From the NCBI RefSeq assembly GCF_006159205.1, contig NZ_CP040812.1, forward strand, positions 2,604,001-2,668,000: a stretch of 64,000 bases of DNA, given 5' to 3'. A model generated the notes under the pieces. That model ran no database searches. It was not told the origin of the DNA and saw nothing but the letters and a program-made list of their open reading frames with translations. Source of the stretch: Antarcticibacterium flavum. Lineage in GTDB: Bacteria > Bacteroidota > Bacteroidia > Flavobacteriales > Flavobacteriaceae. Each line of letters starts with the position of its first letter. Positions within the stretch are counted from its first letter, which is position 1. Positions 29,488-38,513 of this stretch are shown piece by piece. The position numbers were made by a program, and so were the translations under genes.

Positions 29488-30516
29488 CTAATATTTCTGC
29501 TTGTTGGCATAATTTACCAGGGAGAGCATCACAGGTACTTCTACCAGGACTCCTACTACACACACCAGGGCAGCCGGACTATCCAGTCCAAATAAGCCAA
29601 TTGCCACAGCAACTGAAAGTTCAAAGAAATTACTTGCCCCTATCATTGCCGCGGGAGCACAAACCTTGTGTGAGAGATTTAATTTTTTCCCCGTGAACCA
29701 GGTGGCAAAGAATATGAAATAGGTTTGAATGATAAGGGGTACTGCTATAAGAAAAATTACCAGCGGATTGTTTAGAATATTTTCCCCCTGGAAGGCAAAG
29801 AGCAAAATGAGGGTTAAAAGCAGCGCAATAATGCTTACAGGCTTAAATTTTGGAAGAAAATCCTTCTGAAACCAATTTGTCCCATGTCGTTTAATAAGCA
29901 GGTTGCTGGTGAGTATTCCTGCAATGAGAGGTACTACAACATATATTAAAATGCTAAGGATGAGAGTTTCATAAGGCACCACAACGTCTGTAATCCCTAA
30001 CAACAAACCTACTATAGGTACGAAAGCAAAGAGAATGATGAGATCGTTTACAGAGACTTGCATTAGGGTGTAATTTGGGTCTCCATCTGTGAGGTAGGAC
30101 CATACAAATACCATTGCAGTGCAGGGGGCGGCGCCCAGAATAATGGCACCTGCAATGTATTCCCCGGCAAGTGCGGGATCGATAAAGGCAGCAAATATCT
30201 TCGTGAAGAATATCCAGGCAAAGAAAGCCATGGTGAAAGGTTTTATGAGCCAGTTCATTATCAGGGTAAGTACAATCCCCTTTGGTTTTTTACCTATTTT
30301 CTTAATGCTGGTAAAATCAATTTGCAGCATCATGGGGTATATCATCATCCAGATAAGGACTGCGATTGGGATATTCACCTGGTAGATCTCCCAGGTGCTC
30401 ATTATCTGCATGGCGTCGCCCGCCATATATCCTATAAAAATTCCTGCGGCTATGCAAAGAGCAACCCAAAGGCTTAAATACTTTTCAAAAAATGCGATTT
30501 TCTTCTTTTCTGCCAT
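29488..30516 (-). CDS. arsB: ACR3-family arsenite efflux permease
   Basis: 342 residues with ten membrane helices. Family landmarks are MMIYPMMLQIDF in the second helix region, AAPCTAMVFVWS with the conserved thiolate cysteine, and the GASNFFELSVAVAIGLFG segment. It extrudes As(III), and possibly Sb(III), across the inner membrane, driven by the membrane potential. No ArsA ATPase is encoded nearby. Its start overlaps the stop of the arsenate reductase (TAATG), the last pair of a four-gene operon. Confidence 0.96.
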   Translation of the reverse strand: MAEKKKIAFFEKYLSLWVALCIAAGIFIGYMAGDAMQIMSTWEIYQVNIPIAVLIWMMIYPMMLQIDFTSIKKIGKKPKGIVLTLIMNWLIKPFTMAFFAWIFFTKIFAAFIDPALAGEYIAGAIILGAAPCTAMVFVWSYLTDGDPNYTLMQVSVNDLIILFAFVPIVGLLLGITDVVVPYETLILSILIYVVVPLIAGILTSNLLIKRHGTNWFQKDFLPKFKPVSIIALLLTLILLFAFQGENILNNPLVIFLIAVPLIIQTYFIFFATWFTGKKLNLSHKVCAPAAMIGASNFFELSVAVAIGLFGLDSPAALVCVVGVLVEVPVMLSLVNYANKQKY

Positions 30517-31151
30517 TATTTTAGGTTGATTTGAGAGAATACATAAAAAAGTTCTGCTGCTATTTGGCGGCTTCGCTCCCTATATTTTTCTTCCTGTTTC
30601 GGGCTGCCGTCGAATTCTTTCGGATCCTCATAGGTAACAGGGATCCTTTTTTCGGCACCGGGAATAAAGGGGCATCCTACATCGGCCTGGGAGCAGGTCA
30701 TGATAGCAGCAAACGCGGTCTGTGGATTGAAACTATGGTCATAGGTCTTCGAAAATCCAATAACCGGGTGCTCATTAGTATTATATTTTATACTGTGTAC
30801 AGGATTTTTGGAATCAGAAAGTTTTTCAATTTTAAAACCCGAATTTTCCAGGGTTTTTGCTGCAGCAGAAAAAAGTGCTGTGGCCTCTGTCCCGCCAGAG
30901 TAACAACTTACCTGCGGCACCTTAAAGTAACAGGCCAGAGCCTGCGCCCACACCTGGGACAAGTGGCTCCTCCGGGAGTTGTGTGTGCAAATGAAATTAA
31001 GCCGAACAGGCTCCAATGATCCTACCTTACTTTGAATGTAGTCGATAAGTGGTTGTAAAATATTTTTTCGATCCTCAGCTACAGGTATGTTTATGAGTTC
31101 TTTTATTTCCCTTTCTATTTCGGGAAAGAGTTGGGTCGAATCTCTGGTCAT
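30516..31151 (-). CDS. Arsenate reductase, low-molecular-weight phosphatase type
   Basis: 211 residues, longer than the roughly 130 of Gram-positive ArsC, with an extra N-terminal helical segment (1-48). The phosphatase loop CTHNSRRS (Cys55) is intact; further cysteines lie at IMTCSQADVGCPF and could form the disulfide cascade. The family reduces arsenate to arsenite using thioredoxin or similar thiols. It lies between DUF6428 and ACR3 in the operon. A pure protein phosphatase function is unlikely given context. Confidence 0.92.
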   Translation of the reverse strand: MTRDSTQLFPEIEREIKELINIPVAEDRKNILQPLIDYIQSKVGSLEPVRLNFICTHNSRRSHLSQVWAQALACYFKVPQVSCYSGGTEATALFSAAAKTLENSGFKIEKLSDSKNPVHSIKYNTNEHPVIGFSKTYDHSFNPQTAFAAIMTCSQADVGCPFIPGAEKRIPVTYEDPKEFDGSPKQEEKYRERSRQIAAELFYVFSQINLK

Positions 31152-31179
31152 AAATTCGTTTATTTACTGTTATTTAACC

Positions 31180-31632
31180 TTAGCAACAGCCGGAATTTGG
31201 GGCGCAGGAATTTGATTTCTCAATCTGCAACCTTTCAACAGGAACGTTGCACTTTTCTTTTGCAAGGCAATTGGTATTTTTTGGGACCAACAAGAAATTC
31301 CAGCCATCATAATCCAGCTCAAATTTTTCAATTGTTTGTCCCTGGTACTCTACTTCAATTTCCAGGTCGTCCAGGCCAAGGATTTTTTCAGACAGTTGGA
31401 TGATATGTACTAATTTCTCCGGGTGCAATCTGTGGTCATAATCATTGGCATTCCAAAGTTGAAAATTGGCAACTTCTTCTTTCCTTACCGTCCCGCCACA
31501 GTCAATGAAATGTTTTGAAACTCTACCCACCTCTGTCACGTGAAAATGGCGGGGCACAAGCTCCCCGTTAGGAAGTTCAAATTGAATAGTCTCTGTAGCT
31601 GTAAGGATCTTTTTAATTTCTGAAAGTTTCAT
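31180..31632 (-). CDS. DUF6428 arsenic-operon protein with Cys-rich tail
   Basis: 150 residues. The core (about 1-125) fits DUF6428, found in arsenic operons of Bacteroidetes: PRHFHVTEVGRVSKHFIDCGG, then LWNANDYDHRLHPEKL. The C-terminal 30 residues contain NCLAKEKC and the end NSCAPNSGCC, giving five cysteines that could bind As(III). Histidines in the core could also bind metal. Function is not established; a metallochaperone handing arsenite to ACR3 is a context inference. It lies between arsR and the arsenate reductase gene. Confidence 0.82.
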   Translation of the reverse strand: MKLSEIKKILTATETIQFELPNGELVPRHFHVTEVGRVSKHFIDCGGTVRKEEVANFQLWNANDYDHRLHPEKLVHIIQLSEKILGLDDLEIEVEYQGQTIEKFELDYDGWNFLLVPKNTNCLAKEKCNVPVERLQIEKSNSCAPNSGCC

Positions 31633-31664
31633 AGCGGTAAATTTTTATCAGTTTAATTCTCAAA

Positions 31665-32000
31665 CTAACAGCAGTTGTTTGCTGGAGGGGGCATGTATTG
31701 GTCAAAGATTTTATTGAATTGTTCTTTTATTTCTTCCCATCGCCCGGGGTTGATACAGTAATTTACCCGGGTCCCTTCAATAGTACCCTGGATCACACCT
31801 ATTTCCTTTAATTCCCTTAAATGCTGGCTTATAGTAGCCTGGGCCAGGCCCAGTTCATTTACCAAATCGCCATTGATACAACTGCTGGATTTCAAGAGAT
31901 ATTCAATTATGGCTATGCGGGCGGGATGAGCAAATGCTTTTGCAGCAAGGGCCAGTTCATTTTGAGTCTCAGAGAAAAGATCGCTTTTTGTAACTCCCAT
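31665..32000 (-). CDS. arsR: ArsR/SmtB family arsenic-responsive repressor
   Basis: 111 residues with the winged-helix segment LVNELGLAQATISQHLRELKEIGVI. The classical ELCVCDL metal site of the alpha-3 helix is not present. Cysteines lie at SSCING, VNYCIN and a terminal NNCC pair, so arsenite sensing probably uses the C-terminal cysteines, as in other ArsR variants with end-placed sites. It heads the operon and is preceded by a palindrome that fits its operator. Confidence 0.93.
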   Translation of the reverse strand: MGVTKSDLFSETQNELALAAKAFAHPARIAIIEYLLKSSSCINGDLVNELGLAQATISQHLRELKEIGVIQGTIEGTRVNYCINPGRWEEIKEQFNKIFDQYMPPPANNCC

Positions 32001-32180: not shown

Positions 32181-35009
32181 TTAAAATTTATATGAATAGC
32201 TAAGGGAAATGGGGGTCCCCGGATTTCTGATCGCGAATATTTGGTCCTCTGCATTAAATGACTGGAACCTGCTTTCAATATCATCATTCAGGATATTCTG
32301 TACCTTAAGGCTAATTGTGGAATTTCTGGCCTCCCCAAAGGTTTTACTGAAGTTGAAATTCAAACTATGGAAAGGCATTGTGTAAACATCTGGAACCGTA
32401 CCAATACCTACAACTTCAAGTGTTTTACCCTGAACATTATAGTAGATCCCGGTTTGCCAGCCAGCATTCTCACTTGTATAATTCAGGCCTGTATTGATAA
32501 GGTAAGGCGATTGCCCCTGCAGCGGCCTTTTGCCGTCAAATTCCTCACCTGTTCGTAAGTTTCGTTGTTTTGATTCATACTCCCCATTAGGGCTCCGGTC
32601 CATTTCAACCTGGGAGTCTATTACAGATACATTTAAGTTCAGGTCAAAATTAGAAAGACCGGCATCAAGAAAGCCAAGATTGCGGCGTATCTCAACTTCA
32701 GCTCCATAAACAAGTGCATCATTCACATTACGTGGCTGCAGGTTATCTGAAGCAAAATCACTAAAGATGGTAAGTTCAATAGGATCTTTGAAAGACTTTA
32801 CAAATCCGCTGAAGGCGATTAACTGCGCCTGGTCACCATAGATCTCATACCTTAGATCGAGGTTGTTAATATACGTTGGCCTAATATCAATATTTCCAAT
32901 GAAGGTCCTGTTGGTCAAAGGATCATAGATCTGTGCGATAGAGGCTTCTTTAAAGGAAGGCCTTGCAGTGGTGCGGGCATAGGAAAATCTTAAATTGGCA
33001 TTCTCTGTAGTGCTCAAGATGAAGTTGGCAGAAGGGAAAAAGTCTGCTTTGTCAATGAGGTGCGCATTATCCAGCCGTTGATCTCCAAGGTTATTTTGCC
33101 CGGTATAGAACAGGTCAAATTTCTCGAACCTTACTCCCAGGATCGTCTTTAATTTTTCTGAGATCCTGAATTCCTGGGAGGCATAAGCTGCTGCATTTGT
33201 ATTATAGGCTTCAAAGGTGTTCGCCGGCTCATAAAAACCGTTGATGTAAGATCCTGTTCTTCTCTCGGGCGTCCAAATGTTGCCGGGTGCAAGGATCTCA
33301 TTTGCATCACCGTTATAGTTCTGGCTTACACTTCCCTGAATAAGGATCTGGTATTGATCAATACTAAAATCCCTTTGCTTATAGGTGTAACCTCCTCCAA
33401 ATTTAAGGATGGCATCCCTGTTAAATAGCTGGTGTCTTTTGGTTAGATCAAGTTTACCTACCAGGTTGATCTCCTCAAGGTCCCGCCATATTCGGGTAGG
33501 GCTTTCAGAAGAACTTGGACGTATGCTGTAGGTGTCATTGTTCCTGTTATATTCAAAGGCGGTGATCCTAACATCCTTATCATTGACCCTTGCAAGGGTA
33601 GGGGAAAGTTTCCACTCTGTGGTCCAGGAGGCATCTTCATTGCTGTGCTTCCCTGTCAACATAGCATTGGTAATAGAACGTTGAGAATACTCAAGGTTAT
33701 CCCTAAAGGCTTCAATAGCATCTGCAAGGATCACGTTCTCATAAAAATATCCTGCTCTTGATTCCCCGTTTTGCAGGTGAAGAACGTTGAATTGATATTT
33801 AGACTGTGATGTTTTAAATGCAGTTCCTGCCATGGCGCTTATAAGAACATTGTTGGTGCCGTAATCACCGGTTAGGGTCCTGGCCGGCCTCAGCTCAAAC
33901 TCGCTTGTAGCACGGGGTTTAAGATAAGAGTTGCTTTCAAAATCCTCATAGAACTCTGTTTCGTTTTTATAAGAGATAGATGCGAAGTAGCCAAGTTTAT
34001 TATTATCACCAACAGTGTATTGGTTACCTGCAGTTAAACCGGCACTAAAGTCGATTGGACTGGTTGATGTTGTGGCACCAAGCGTTGGATTGAAACGTTG
34101 TGTTAACCTTGTAAGTGCTGCGTCATTATCAAATGGCCTTGGAAACGGCTGATTCCTTCTTACAGGCATATCCCTGGTGCCATCATCAAATCCAAGGAAA
34201 TCTGTGCTGCTGCCATCATATTGGAGGTAGTTAGAATTAAAATGCATGGAAGGATTATAGGTTCCTCCAATAGAGAGGCTGTACTCTTCCCTTGATGGAA
34301 AATCCTTGGTAACTATATTTACCATTCCCCCTGTAAAATCGGCAGGAAGATCTGCAGTAGAGGATTTCACGACCTGGATATTATCCAGAATATTGGTTGG
34401 AAATAGGTCGAGCTGTATGGTATTCCTGTCGGGGTCCAGTCCCGGGATATCCATCCCATTGAGTATTGATTTGGTATACCTGTCTCCAAGTCCCCTCACA
34501 TACACATATTTTCCATCCTGTACAGAGACTCCCGGCACTGTTTTAACGGCCGATGATACCTCTCCTGCACCAATTTTCGCGAAAGTTTGCGATGCCAGGC
34601 CATCCATTAAATTCACAGAGTTTCGCTGCAGGGTTAGAACAGATGCTTCTGTATCCCTTGCCGTCGTTGTAGTGATGATGATCTCATCCAGGGCCCCGGC
34701 AGATGATTTCATAGTGACATTAAGGGGTGTAGTCTCCCCGGCTTTTACTATTACATCGCTTACCTCAAGAGTTTCATAACCTACAAAGGAAAATACAACA
34801 GTGTAGGTTCCTTCCTGAACTTCAAGAACATAATCTCCTTCAAAATCTGAGGTGGTACCCGTGGTGGTGCCTTTTATATAAGCGTTTGCAAAGGGTAGAA
34901 TGTCATTTACTTCTGCATCATTGATCACTCCTGCTATTTTCCCTTTTTGGGCGTATGAAAAATTGAACAAAAAACTTAAAATTAAAACCAGTGTGAATTT
35001 AGTATTCAT
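32181..35009 (-). CDS. TonB-dependent outer-membrane receptor
   Basis: 942 residues. Signal peptide (1-20, ending SYAQ), a carboxypeptidase-regulatory-like domain (about 22-110), a plug domain (about 115-240, with ISSAVKTVPGVSVQDGKYVYVRGLGDRY) and a 22-strand barrel to the terminal SLSYSYKF. It lacks the SusC signature, and no SusD gene is adjacent. Instead it pairs with a beta-helix lipoprotein gene upstream. Substrate unknown; the nearby phoB-phoR pair suggests, without proving, a phosphorus compound. Confidence 0.93.
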   Translation of the reverse strand: MNTKFTLVLILSFLFNFSYAQKGKIAGVINDAEVNDILPFANAYIKGTTTGTTSDFEGDYVLEVQEGTYTVVFSFVGYETLEVSDVIVKAGETTPLNVTMKSSAGALDEIIITTTTARDTEASVLTLQRNSVNLMDGLASQTFAKIGAGEVSSAVKTVPGVSVQDGKYVYVRGLGDRYTKSILNGMDIPGLDPDRNTIQLDLFPTNILDNIQVVKSSTADLPADFTGGMVNIVTKDFPSREEYSLSIGGTYNPSMHFNSNYLQYDGSSTDFLGFDDGTRDMPVRRNQPFPRPFDNDAALTRLTQRFNPTLGATTSTSPIDFSAGLTAGNQYTVGDNNKLGYFASISYKNETEFYEDFESNSYLKPRATSEFELRPARTLTGDYGTNNVLISAMAGTAFKTSQSKYQFNVLHLQNGESRAGYFYENVILADAIEAFRDNLEYSQRSITNAMLTGKHSNEDASWTTEWKLSPTLARVNDKDVRITAFEYNRNNDTYSIRPSSSESPTRIWRDLEEINLVGKLDLTKRHQLFNRDAILKFGGGYTYKQRDFSIDQYQILIQGSVSQNYNGDANEILAPGNIWTPERRTGSYINGFYEPANTFEAYNTNAAAYASQEFRISEKLKTILGVRFEKFDLFYTGQNNLGDQRLDNAHLIDKADFFPSANFILSTTENANLRFSYARTTARPSFKEASIAQIYDPLTNRTFIGNIDIRPTYINNLDLRYEIYGDQAQLIAFSGFVKSFKDPIELTIFSDFASDNLQPRNVNDALVYGAEVEIRRNLGFLDAGLSNFDLNLNVSVIDSQVEMDRSPNGEYESKQRNLRTGEEFDGKRPLQGQSPYLINTGLNYTSENAGWQTGIYYNVQGKTLEVVGIGTVPDVYTMPFHSLNFNFSKTFGEARNSTISLKVQNILNDDIESRFQSFNAEDQIFAIRNPGTPISLSYSYKF

Positions 35010-35038
35010 AGAAATTTTATAATTATATATCTTATAGT

Positions 35039-35070
35039 AATTGCCCGTCCCTTAAAAGAGACGAGCAATT
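35039..35070 (-). promoter_or_regulatory. Hairpin between lipoprotein and receptor genes
   Basis: AATTGCCCGTCCCTT (35039-35053) pairs with AAGAGACGAGCAATT (35056-35070), with only two non-Watson-Crick positions. No T-run follows, so it may set mRNA stability or partial readthrough rather than stop transcription. Confidence 0.55.
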
Positions 35071-35097
35071 GCAGTCATTTTTTACTATTGACCTTAA

Positions 35098-36426
35098 TTA
35101 AAATGCGCCACGCATTTTGGCAAAGGTCCAGTCAAATACAGAAAGATCTGCACCAACGGTCTCTTCTCCATCATTAATGGCGGTTGCAAAATTTGCAGTA
35201 TCGGCTTTTAACGTGGTACTTGTGGTAGTGTCGTTGAAAATATCGGCAACATTTGATACCCCTTCAGGAAGAACAATTTCCCAGGCATCAAACACAAGGC
35301 TGCCGCTATTGTAGTTTCCTGCAGATCCTGCATCATCAAGTTCCACATCCTGTGCGGGACCAAAACCTTTGATAAATACGTTTTTTATGGTACCCATGGC
35401 TCCATCCCTAAAGTCGGCTATTTCACCATCTGGAGCAGTTGGATCCCCAATGATCGTAAGTCCATCTATGATGAAAGCGCCTTGTAAAGTTCCCTCCGGG
35501 CCATCTATTTCAAGGGCGTGATCAGAAATATTTCCCTGTATCACAAGGGCATTAGTGATTGTGCCGGAGTAAGCCTGGTCTATATCAAGACCATCATCTC
35601 CACCTGCGAATACCACTATATTGCTGGAATTAACATTACCTCCAAACCATTCAACACCATCATCTACATTTCCAACAATTTCAATATGGTTAATAGTTGT
35701 ACCTCTACCTACGCCTCCAAGGGTAAGGCCATTGATCTCGTTACCCGATCCAATAAGGGCTCCCCCGTGACGTATTGAAACGTACTCAAGAAAACCTGAA
35801 TTATCCTCGGGATCGCTGCCGCCATATCTTCCAAAGTCATCATCGGCCGGGATTCCTTCTATTTGTGAGATCTCAGAATCCCCTTCAAATGAACTTGGTG
35901 CATAGCCCAGGATGATAACACCGCCCCATAGCCCCCTGTCATTCTCGTCCAGGTTTGTGCCGGCCAACTGGCCAATTTGGATATTGTCATTAACTGAAGT
36001 AAAAATTATAGGCTGCTCGGCAGTACCCCTGGCATCTATCATTCCCCCTCTTGCAACGATTAAGGCAGAAGCCAGAGACCCTGTCCCTTCACCTCCTTTA
36101 ATAATGGTTCCCGGTTCTATTGTTAATGTCACTCCATTACCTACTACCACTTTTCCATTCAATTCCCATATCACGTCATTGGTTAAGGTAAGGTCCTGTG
36201 CAATAAGGCCGGCAAGGTCTTCATCTACAACAGCGCCTCCTCCATTGCCTCCACCATCACCAGGACAGGCAGCACACGGCCCGCCGCAATCAACTCCAGT
36301 TTCAAGTCCATTTTGAATACCATCTGTACAGGTGGCAAGTTGCTCAATGCTGGTGTCATCATCACTGTTACAGCTCGTGAAAACTAGAGCTGATAAGGCA
36401 AATGCGGTTAGAATTAATTTTTTCAT
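35098..36426 (-). CDS. Beta-helix surface or periplasmic lipoprotein, receptor partner
   Basis: 442 residues. Lipobox FTSC (Cys19) followed by NSDDD, an acidic pattern seen in surface-exposed Bacteroidetes lipoproteins. Residues 30-60 hold a cysteine motif (CTDGIQNGLETGVDCGG, then CAAC) and a glycine-rich linker. The rest has repeating strands and asparagine/glycine turns typical of a right-handed parallel beta-helix (about 75-400). It is the first gene of the operon with the TonB receptor, so it probably captures or processes the ligand. Enzyme activity cannot be assigned. Confidence 0.82.
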   Translation of the reverse strand: MKKLILTAFALSALVFTSCNSDDDTSIEQLATCTDGIQNGLETGVDCGGPCAACPGDGGGNGGGAVVDEDLAGLIAQDLTLTNDVIWELNGKVVVGNGVTLTIEPGTIIKGGEGTGSLASALIVARGGMIDARGTAEQPIIFTSVNDNIQIGQLAGTNLDENDRGLWGGVIILGYAPSSFEGDSEISQIEGIPADDDFGRYGGSDPEDNSGFLEYVSIRHGGALIGSGNEINGLTLGGVGRGTTINHIEIVGNVDDGVEWFGGNVNSSNIVVFAGGDDGLDIDQAYSGTITNALVIQGNISDHALEIDGPEGTLQGAFIIDGLTIIGDPTAPDGEIADFRDGAMGTIKNVFIKGFGPAQDVELDDAGSAGNYNSGSLVFDAWEIVLPEGVSNVADIFNDTTTSTTLKADTANFATAINDGEETVGADLSVFDWTFAKMRGAF

Positions 36427-36722
36427 ACTTGGTTTACGTTTAAAATTCTATTTTTTGGTTTTTAATACAGGACAAATTAACGGGCTTAATCCCTCCTGAA
36501 GCTTATCTAAACTTTAACCTTGGGTTAAAAGCGGCATCCGGTATGTTATCTTTGGGTTTAGAAATAGGGGTTTTTAACCGGGGGTGGAAAAGGGGCGTAC
36601 CCCCGTGAAATGAGGAAAACCATTGAAGTCAGAGGAATACGAAGGAGAAGGCAGTAGGTCGTTTGTTAACCCAGTGTTACTTCCTGTACAGGTGCTTAAG
36701 GTGAAATCCCCAATTTTATATA
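36427..36722. promoter_or_regulatory. Divergent regulatory region with palindrome, lipoprotein gene versus phoB
   Basis: The intergenic region has no gene. It contains the perfect inverted repeat TTTAACC-TTG-GGTTAAA at 36513-36529, a position suited to control the lipoprotein-receptor operon. Further TTAAC half-sites lie near 36575 and 36668. Whether PhoB or another factor binds is unknown. Confidence 0.5.
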
Positions 36723-36730
36723 TACATTTG
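36723..36730 (+). promoter_or_regulatory. -7 promoter element of phoB-phoR
   Basis: TACATTTG matches TAnnTTTG, 24 bp before the phoB ATG at 36755. Confidence 0.6.
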
Positions 36731-36754
36731 TGTAAGTTAGTTTACAATGTTCCT

Positions 36755-37437
36755 ATGAAGAAAAAAGACATTTTGATCCTTCTGGTAGATGATGAGCCAG
36801 ATATCCTGGAGATCGTAAGTTACAATCTTACTGCTGAAGGTTACAAAGTAATCACGGCCGAGAACGGTAGCAGAGCGGTCCAGCTTGCCAAAAAGAAAAA
36901 GCCCCACCTTATCATCCTGGATGTAATGATGCCAGAGATGGATGGGATTGAGGCCTGTGAACAAATAAGGAAAATGCCCGAATTAAGCGAGACTATCATT
37001 ACCTTCCTTACCGCCCGGGGGAGGATTACTCCCAAATGGCAGGATTTGATGCGGGGGCAGATGATTATATTACCAAGCCTATTAAGCCTAAGGTTCTTGT
37101 AAGCAAAGTTAAAGCCCTGCTTAGAAGATTTCGCGATAATACCGACAGTTCAAATATTGTAACTATAGGGGATCTTGTGATCAACCGTGATGAATATAAG
37201 ATCATAAAGGATGATGAGGAAATTGTCCTGCCAAGAAAGGAGTTTGAACTGCTCTCCCTGCTTGCCTCAAAACCCGGAAAAGTATTTAAAAGAGAAGAGA
37301 TCCTTGATAACGTGTGGGGAAATGAAGTGGTTGTTGGTGGTAGGACCATAGATGTACATATTAGAAAACTACGCGAAAAAATTGGGGATGACAGCTTTAA
37401 AACCGTGAAAGGTGTAGGATATAAGTTTGTGGAATAA
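36755..37437 (+). pseudogene. PhoB-type response regulator, frameshifted as given
   Basis: The receiver domain starts at ATG 36755 (MKKKDILILLVDDEP) with phospho-acceptor Asp56 in ILDVMMPEMDG. At 37017-37021 a run of five G breaks the frame: one more G would restore TARGEDYSQMAGFDAG and join the receiver to KPIKPKVL and the OmpR/PhoB winged helix (about residues 130-227, ending VKGVGYKFVE). So it is a full-length PhoB/OmpR regulator in two frames, from a sequencing error in a G-run or a real mutation. The downstream kinase overlaps its stop codon, which would be odd for a dead gene. Confidence 0.88.
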
Positions 37438-38513
37438 TGCCAAATTTTAAAAGATCATACAAGTTTGCTATAAAGACTTCTTTGTTCATAACCGTACTGT
37501 TAACGCTCCTGGTGAGCGTTTTTTTGTGGATGAGATATGAGTTTGAATGGGAGCCGGTTGCTGTATTTGGGTTAATTTCTTACATGTTCTCCTTCTTTAT
37601 CATTCAATACAGGGTAGAGCACTTTATATACAAAAGGGTTAAAAAGATTTATGATAATGTAACCTTGCTGGATGCGAGCACTCTGCGGCCCAACCAGATC
37701 ACTACAGATATGGCAACCCTTACCCGGGAGGTGGAAAAGTTTGCTGAAGATAAAAAACTTGAAATTGAGACCCTAAAAGTTAGGGAGACCTATCGTAAGG
37801 AATTTATGGGGAACGTCTCACATGAGCTTAAAACCCCATTGTTCACAGTGCAGGGTTATATCCTAACATTGCTGGATGGTGCTCTCAAGGACAAATCTGT
37901 GAGAAAAAAATATTTACAACGGGCCAATAAAGGGGTGGAAAGGCTTATTTATATAGTGAAGGACCTGGATATGATCACCAAACTGGAAACAGGAGATCTC
38001 CACCTGGTGATGGAGAACTTTAATGTGGTAGAGGTTATACAAAACTCCTTCGACCTCCTTGAAATGAAAGCTGCCAAAAAAGATATTACCCTCACTTTTG
38101 ATATGGATTATGAAAAACCAATTTGGGTGTATGCAGACAGGGAGCGTATACAGCAGGTAATCACAAATCTGGTTGTGAATTCCATTAAATATGGTAAAAA
38201 GGGCGGGACTACAGAGATTAGTATTGAGAACCTTATCAAGAATAAAGTGATCGTAAGGGTTACAGATAACGGGGAGGGAATTGAAAAAACACATATTCCC
38301 CGGCTTTTTGAAAGATTTTTCAGGATAGATAAAAGCGGTTCAAGAAAAGAGGGAGGCTCCGGGCTGGGGCTTTCTATTGTAAAGCACATTATTGAGGCCC
38401 ATAATGAAAAGATCTATGTGGAGAGTGTTTTTGGTGTAGGGAGTGAATTCTCATTCACTCTGGAAAAGAGCAAAAGCAGCCTTAAAGGAACTAAGGCCGT
38501 TAAGACCCAGTAA
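37437..38513 (+). CDS. PhoR-type sensor histidine kinase
   Basis: 358 residues. Two membrane helices close together (about 12-30 and 37-56) leave almost no periplasmic sensor, as in PhoR. There is no clear HAMP. The HisKA phospho-acceptor is His129 in NVSHELKTP, and the ATPase domain has VTDNGEGIEK and GGSGLGLSIVKHI. It overlaps the phoB stop by one base (TAATG). Phosphate sensing is inferred from similarity to PhoR. The last 63 bp overlap the convergent glycosyltransferase gene. Confidence 0.92.
   Translation: MPNFKRSYKFAIKTSLFITVLLTLLVSVFLWMRYEFEWEPVAVFGLISYMFSFFIIQYRVEHFIYKRVKKIYDNVTLLDASTLRPNQITTDMATLTREVEKFAEDKKLEIETLKVRETYRKEFMGNVSHELKTPLFTVQGYILTLLDGALKDKSVRKKYLQRANKGVERLIYIVKDLDMITKLETGDLHLVMENFNVVEVIQNSFDLLEMKAAKKDITLTFDMDYEKPIWVYADRERIQQVITNLVVNSIKYGKKGGTTEISIENLIKNKVIVRVTDNGEGIEKTHIPRLFERFFRIDKSGSRKEGGSGLGLSIVKHIIEAHNEKIYVESVFGVGSEFSFTLEKSKSSLKGTKAVKTQ

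Follow-up and report, generated by a model that had tools for sequence, protein, structure and literature searches.

The phoB gene of Antarcticibacterium flavum is found in two reading frames in the window (the whole 64-kb stretch of DNA analyzed, part of a single contig of 4,353,683 bases), and the break between them is very likely a homopolymer-length error in the assembly rather than a mutation or a switch. From comparison with related sequences, the gene most likely encodes an ordinary OmpR-family PhoB, paired with PhoR and intact in the cell. We favor an error at phoB because the same type of lesion recurs in unrelated genes of the same assembly. The break itself most likely tells us nothing of the strain as it lives and is of little biological interest; what it carries is a warning about the assembly, a one-contig genome in which clear one-base losses split 10 of the 377 genes matched.

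The phoB reading frames

The receiver half of phoB is open from the ATG at 36755 up to a run of five Gs (Table 1), as read from the sequence and from the list of open reading frames (ORFs); the ORF as listed (36623–37102) starts at a TTG upstream of that ATG. Just after the G run, the receiver frame leaves the frame of the protein. The rest of the receiver domain and the DNA-binding half continue in a second frame, and the TAA that ends it (37435–37437) shares one base with the ATG of the following kinase ORF (TAATG). No single continuous frame of about 227 codons is found for phoB in the window. The initial annotation had described the two-frame split, its coordinates, and the coupling to phoR, and all are correct as judged from the sequence, the ORFs, and the domain matches.

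Table 1. Features around the phoB break (positions in the window)
Feature	Position	Strand	Basis
TonB-dependent receptor gene, beyond the lipoprotein gene	32181..35009	-	Plug, TonB_dep_Rec_b-barrel (Pfam); context
Probable lipoprotein gene, divergent, upstream of phoB	35098..36426	-	No Pfam match; context
phoB, receiver piece (N piece)	36755..37021	+	Frame open as far as the G run; PF00072
Five-G run, one-base contraction relative to the frame of the aligned relatives	37017..37021	+	Sequence, alignment of relatives
phoB, rest of receiver and winged-helix DNA-binding domain (C piece)	37036..37437	+	Other frame, 133-aa ORF; PF00486, TIGR02154, NF053854
phoR-like sensor histidine kinase	37437..38513	+	HisKA and HATPase_c (Pfam); start overlaps the phoB stop

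In the N piece, residues 8–88 of 89 match positions 1–79 of the 111 in the Pfam receiver profile PF00072 (E = 8e-22). The C piece ends with a match to PF00486 (Trans_reg_C, the winged helix; E = 3e-24). Among the NCBIfam matches, the PhoB models TIGR02154 and NF053854 are the top two for the C piece, and for the N piece, PhoB models rank second and fourth. All these PhoB scores lie below the full-length cut-offs, as they must for pieces of a protein. Since the two adjoining pieces jointly cover the protein at high identity, the split arrangement is more than a chance one: the amino acid identity to seven relatives is 83%–91% for the N piece and 86%–93% for the C piece. The gene thus resembles those of known PhoB/PhoR systems of the OmpR/PhoB family in its receiver and winged helix, in the overlapping phoR downstream, and in the PhoB models that best match the C piece; it differs from them in the frame loss that splits it and in the pieces that score below the full-length cut-offs.

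phoB in relatives

A search of 60 relatives gave a match in 52. The loci examined number 109 and comprise 29 loci for the best matches of that search and the best 80 of 559 loci (with some genomes in both sets). The initial annotation had proposed a comparison of this kind, and the frame is unbroken at every locus examined: in 109 of 109, the match to the 227-residue PhoB spans 215 or more residues in a single frame without a stop. In an alignment through the site, none of 29 relatives has the frame loss (the window itself is the thirtieth row). The 109 loci hold 101 distinct phoB sequences, with the motif TARGEDY in 95 and TARSEDY in six. Over the seven codons of the site, the longest G run is one or two bases in 65 of the distinct sequences, four in 35, and six in one. 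The sequence with six Gs belongs to Salegentibacter sediminis (L034), and the run there is in frame at the same place in phoB. The PhoB of one genome (G013) is identical to that of Antarcticibacterium sp. 1MA-6-2.

The two phoB pieces do not differ in decay when their nonsynonymous divergence (dN) from seven relatives is compared. For the window gene, dN is 0.062–0.106 in the N piece and 0.060–0.103 in the C piece (means of 0.079 and 0.083); in six pairs of intact phoB genes, it is 0.035–0.085 in the N part and 0.055–0.085 in the C part (means of 0.067 and 0.072). The phoB of the window is slightly more diverged than the intact pairs, and equally so on either side of the break. In most pairs, the synonymous distances (dS) are saturated or could not be computed, and they were left unused. 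The view that the operon was intact until recently fits these values, insofar as neither piece has decayed with respect to the other.

Split copies of phoB seem to recur in public assemblies. The N and C pieces are found as the database entries P0053 and P0167 (longest contig of 319,944 bases each) and P0016 and P0124 (541 bases each). The loss of frame in P0167 precedes the TARGEDY motif.

One-base losses elsewhere in the assembly

The genome of the window (G000) was compared with G001, its nearest relative among the 60 searched (phoB 80% identical), over seven regions, around phoB, rpoC, the S10 operon, valS, ileS, atpB, and leuS. The regions cover 584 kb of G000 (window included) and 560 kb of G001. 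The ORFs of each genome were matched to the other genome by tblastn, and a change of frame inside a match was scored. Ten of the 377 matched G001 ORFs have a clear net −1 break in G000; in the reverse direction, one of the 383 matched G000 ORFs has a clear frame change in G001 (at G001:C2:1301111-1301738, a MarC-like gene by eye). For the clear cases, the Fisher p is 0.006, and it is 0.011 without phoB, which was known beforehand. The difference shrinks when every raw candidate is counted: 12 of 377 for breaks in G000 vs. 5 of 383 for breaks in G001 (Fisher p of 0.09). None of the 12 raw G000 candidates has a net gain of one base. An 81-residue ORF (net 17) and a 225-residue ORF of low identity (net −4) were left out of the ten clear cases, and on the reverse side four of the five raw candidates were left out, being short ORFs (106–183 residues), each with in-frame stops in the target. 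The script for frame changes also lists in-frame stops; most of these lie near ORF ends.

The broken genes are phoB, the genes for a ClC channel, recR, a 375-residue membrane protein (no family match), an AI-2E family transporter, enolase, and a Mur ligase, and three named by eye as a glycosyltransferase, a glutamate dehydrogenase, and a patatin-like protein. The nine breaks outside the window lie in G000 at about 2580538, 3566325, 3503570, 1666075, 1687100, 1726337, 3194130, 2133395, and 2112295. Their distribution is uneven: the clear cases are 2 of 72 in the phoB region, 2 of 66 around rpoC, 3 of 73 in the S10 region, 1 of 49 around valS, and 2 of 28 around ileS, with 0 of 55 around atpB and 0 of 34 around leuS (jointly 0 of 89). 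Within the 64-kb window, a reading of the ORF list by eye gave no other obvious split gene. All seven measured gaps are no more than 6 bases away from a run of 4 or 5, against 33% of random positions taken from three of the regions; the remaining three breaks are, by eye, at runs of four, three, and five.

The break in enolase carries particular weight. Over the whole genome, the enolase family has only two matches, and these are the two halves of one split gene. A growing flavobacterium can hardly do without enolase. Since this is the sole enolase gene, without which a living cell of this kind would hardly be viable, its break is very probably an error; the break in phoB is of the same kind and, for that reason, is best read in the same way. 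The assembly as a whole very probably contains such one-base errors, and, by extrapolation, there would be roughly a hundred of them genome-wide if the sampled rate holds. The recurrence favors errors in general, not at the phoB site in particular, and is no proof for phoB.

A shortage of long G/C runs was considered as a mark of collapsed homopolymers and gave no support for the error reading. Relative to the expectation from codon shuffling, G/C runs of six occur at 0.36 in G000 and at 0.16 in G001, so that G000 is no shorter in such runs than its relative. Runs in G000 are thus not under-counted in every case.

Origin of the break

In the favored reading, the phoB of the cell would be unbroken, and a base would have been dropped from the G run when the homopolymer was counted for the assembly. 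The shortened run would shift the frame, so that the receiver and DNA-binding halves would appear as separate ORFs. We infer an error of base calling or of the consensus as the cause. A wrong count of bases in the homopolymer was the first of three causes that the initial annotation had put forward, and it is well supported by the recurrence of the lesion type, the sole enolase gene included. Real mutations also favor homopolymers, so the position of the break is not decisive on its own.

Errors of this type are known. In the excerpts available of a report on Kastor, deletion errors in a long-read assembly are associated with homopolymers two to eight bases long, occur mostly after four to five equal bases, and inflate the counts of pseudogenes (PMC12007338). 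Excerpts of two other reports give indels in 664 of 2116 aligned genes of an unpolished nanopore assembly (PMC8306402) and name homopolymer-length errors as the commonest residual error (PMC8812927). The present losses resemble the deletions described in the Kastor excerpts in being of one base, mostly at runs of four to five, and in splitting several genes of a one-contig genome (PMC12007338).

A recent and real loss-of-function mutation, arising for example during cultivation in a phosphate-rich medium, would leave PhoR without its regulator. It was the second cause proposed, and we consider it possible but unlikely. The deposited sequence does lose the frame, and the absence of decay in one piece with respect to the other is expected of a very recent mutation as well as of an error. 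Against such a mutation, the same type of lesion occurs in nine further genes of the sample, among them the sole enolase gene, whose loss a living strain would hardly survive; phoB is kept at all 109 relative loci examined. Nor is there a second PhoB in the genome that could stand in. A search with PF00486 gives four OmpR-type regulators in G000 and three in G001. The three in G000 other than PhoB were considered as substitutes and rejected, as their identity to an intact PhoB is 31%, 31%, and 34% (L130, L134, and L136) and none is a second copy. Were the loss true, the strain would be a flavobacterium lacking the PhoB kept at all 109 relative loci examined. It is very improbable that PhoB is truly lost and that the inner ATG yields a DNA-binding fragment, without the phosphorylation site, beside an intact PhoR, the regulon being then uncoupled from the sensor.

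The third cause proposed, a phase-variable switch in which slippage in the G run would toggle PhoB within the population, is unsupported and highly implausible. The break does sit in a G run, but a run of five bases is neither long nor unusual here (184 kb contain 105 G/C runs of five). In 100 of the 101 distinct relatives, G runs at the site do not exceed four bases and, thus, there is no conserved tract; neither a long nor a conserved repeat tract is found in the comparison of the five bases here with those relatives. Among the titles listed in a literature search (8 of 175 papers), none is about a switch of phoB. It is similarly hard to credit that programmed or leaky ribosomal frameshifting at GGG gives some full-length PhoB, or that the ATG at 37036 yields a separate DNA-binding fragment: on a reading of the sequence, a tRNA slipping by −1 on GGG would fully re-pair, and an ATG does follow shortly after the G run, but the 109 relative loci examined have a single frame and the codons of the aligned relatives contain no shared slippery run.

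Given the ten clear one-base losses among the 377 matched genes, apparent pseudogenes of this assembly, phoB included, are not to be taken as biology unchecked. Nine further split genes, with the only enolase gene and recR among them, deserve a quality flag on the assembly.

phoR and the neighboring genes

For the kinase downstream of phoB, the best NCBIfam models are PnpS and PhoR, both below cut-off, and the best relatives of this PhoR are in Gillisia, Salegentibacter, and Christiangramia. At all 109 relative loci, phoR lies downstream from phoB on the same strand, at a distance of no more than 60 bases in 100 of them and never above 257. Upstream, on the minus strand, a relative of the lipoprotein gene occurs at 45 of 80 phoR loci (median identity of 33%), and a relative of the TonB-dependent receptor gene also at 45 of 80 (median identity of 28%). 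On account of this recurrence, the divergent receptor and lipoprotein genes (32181–36426) may be targets of PhoB. A cluster not found in the 80 phoR loci, whose 5-kb flanks would not extend to it, lies beyond the receptor gene (29488–32000); its ORFs, read by eye, resemble those of arsenic resistance, with a transporter and an ArsR-type regulator.
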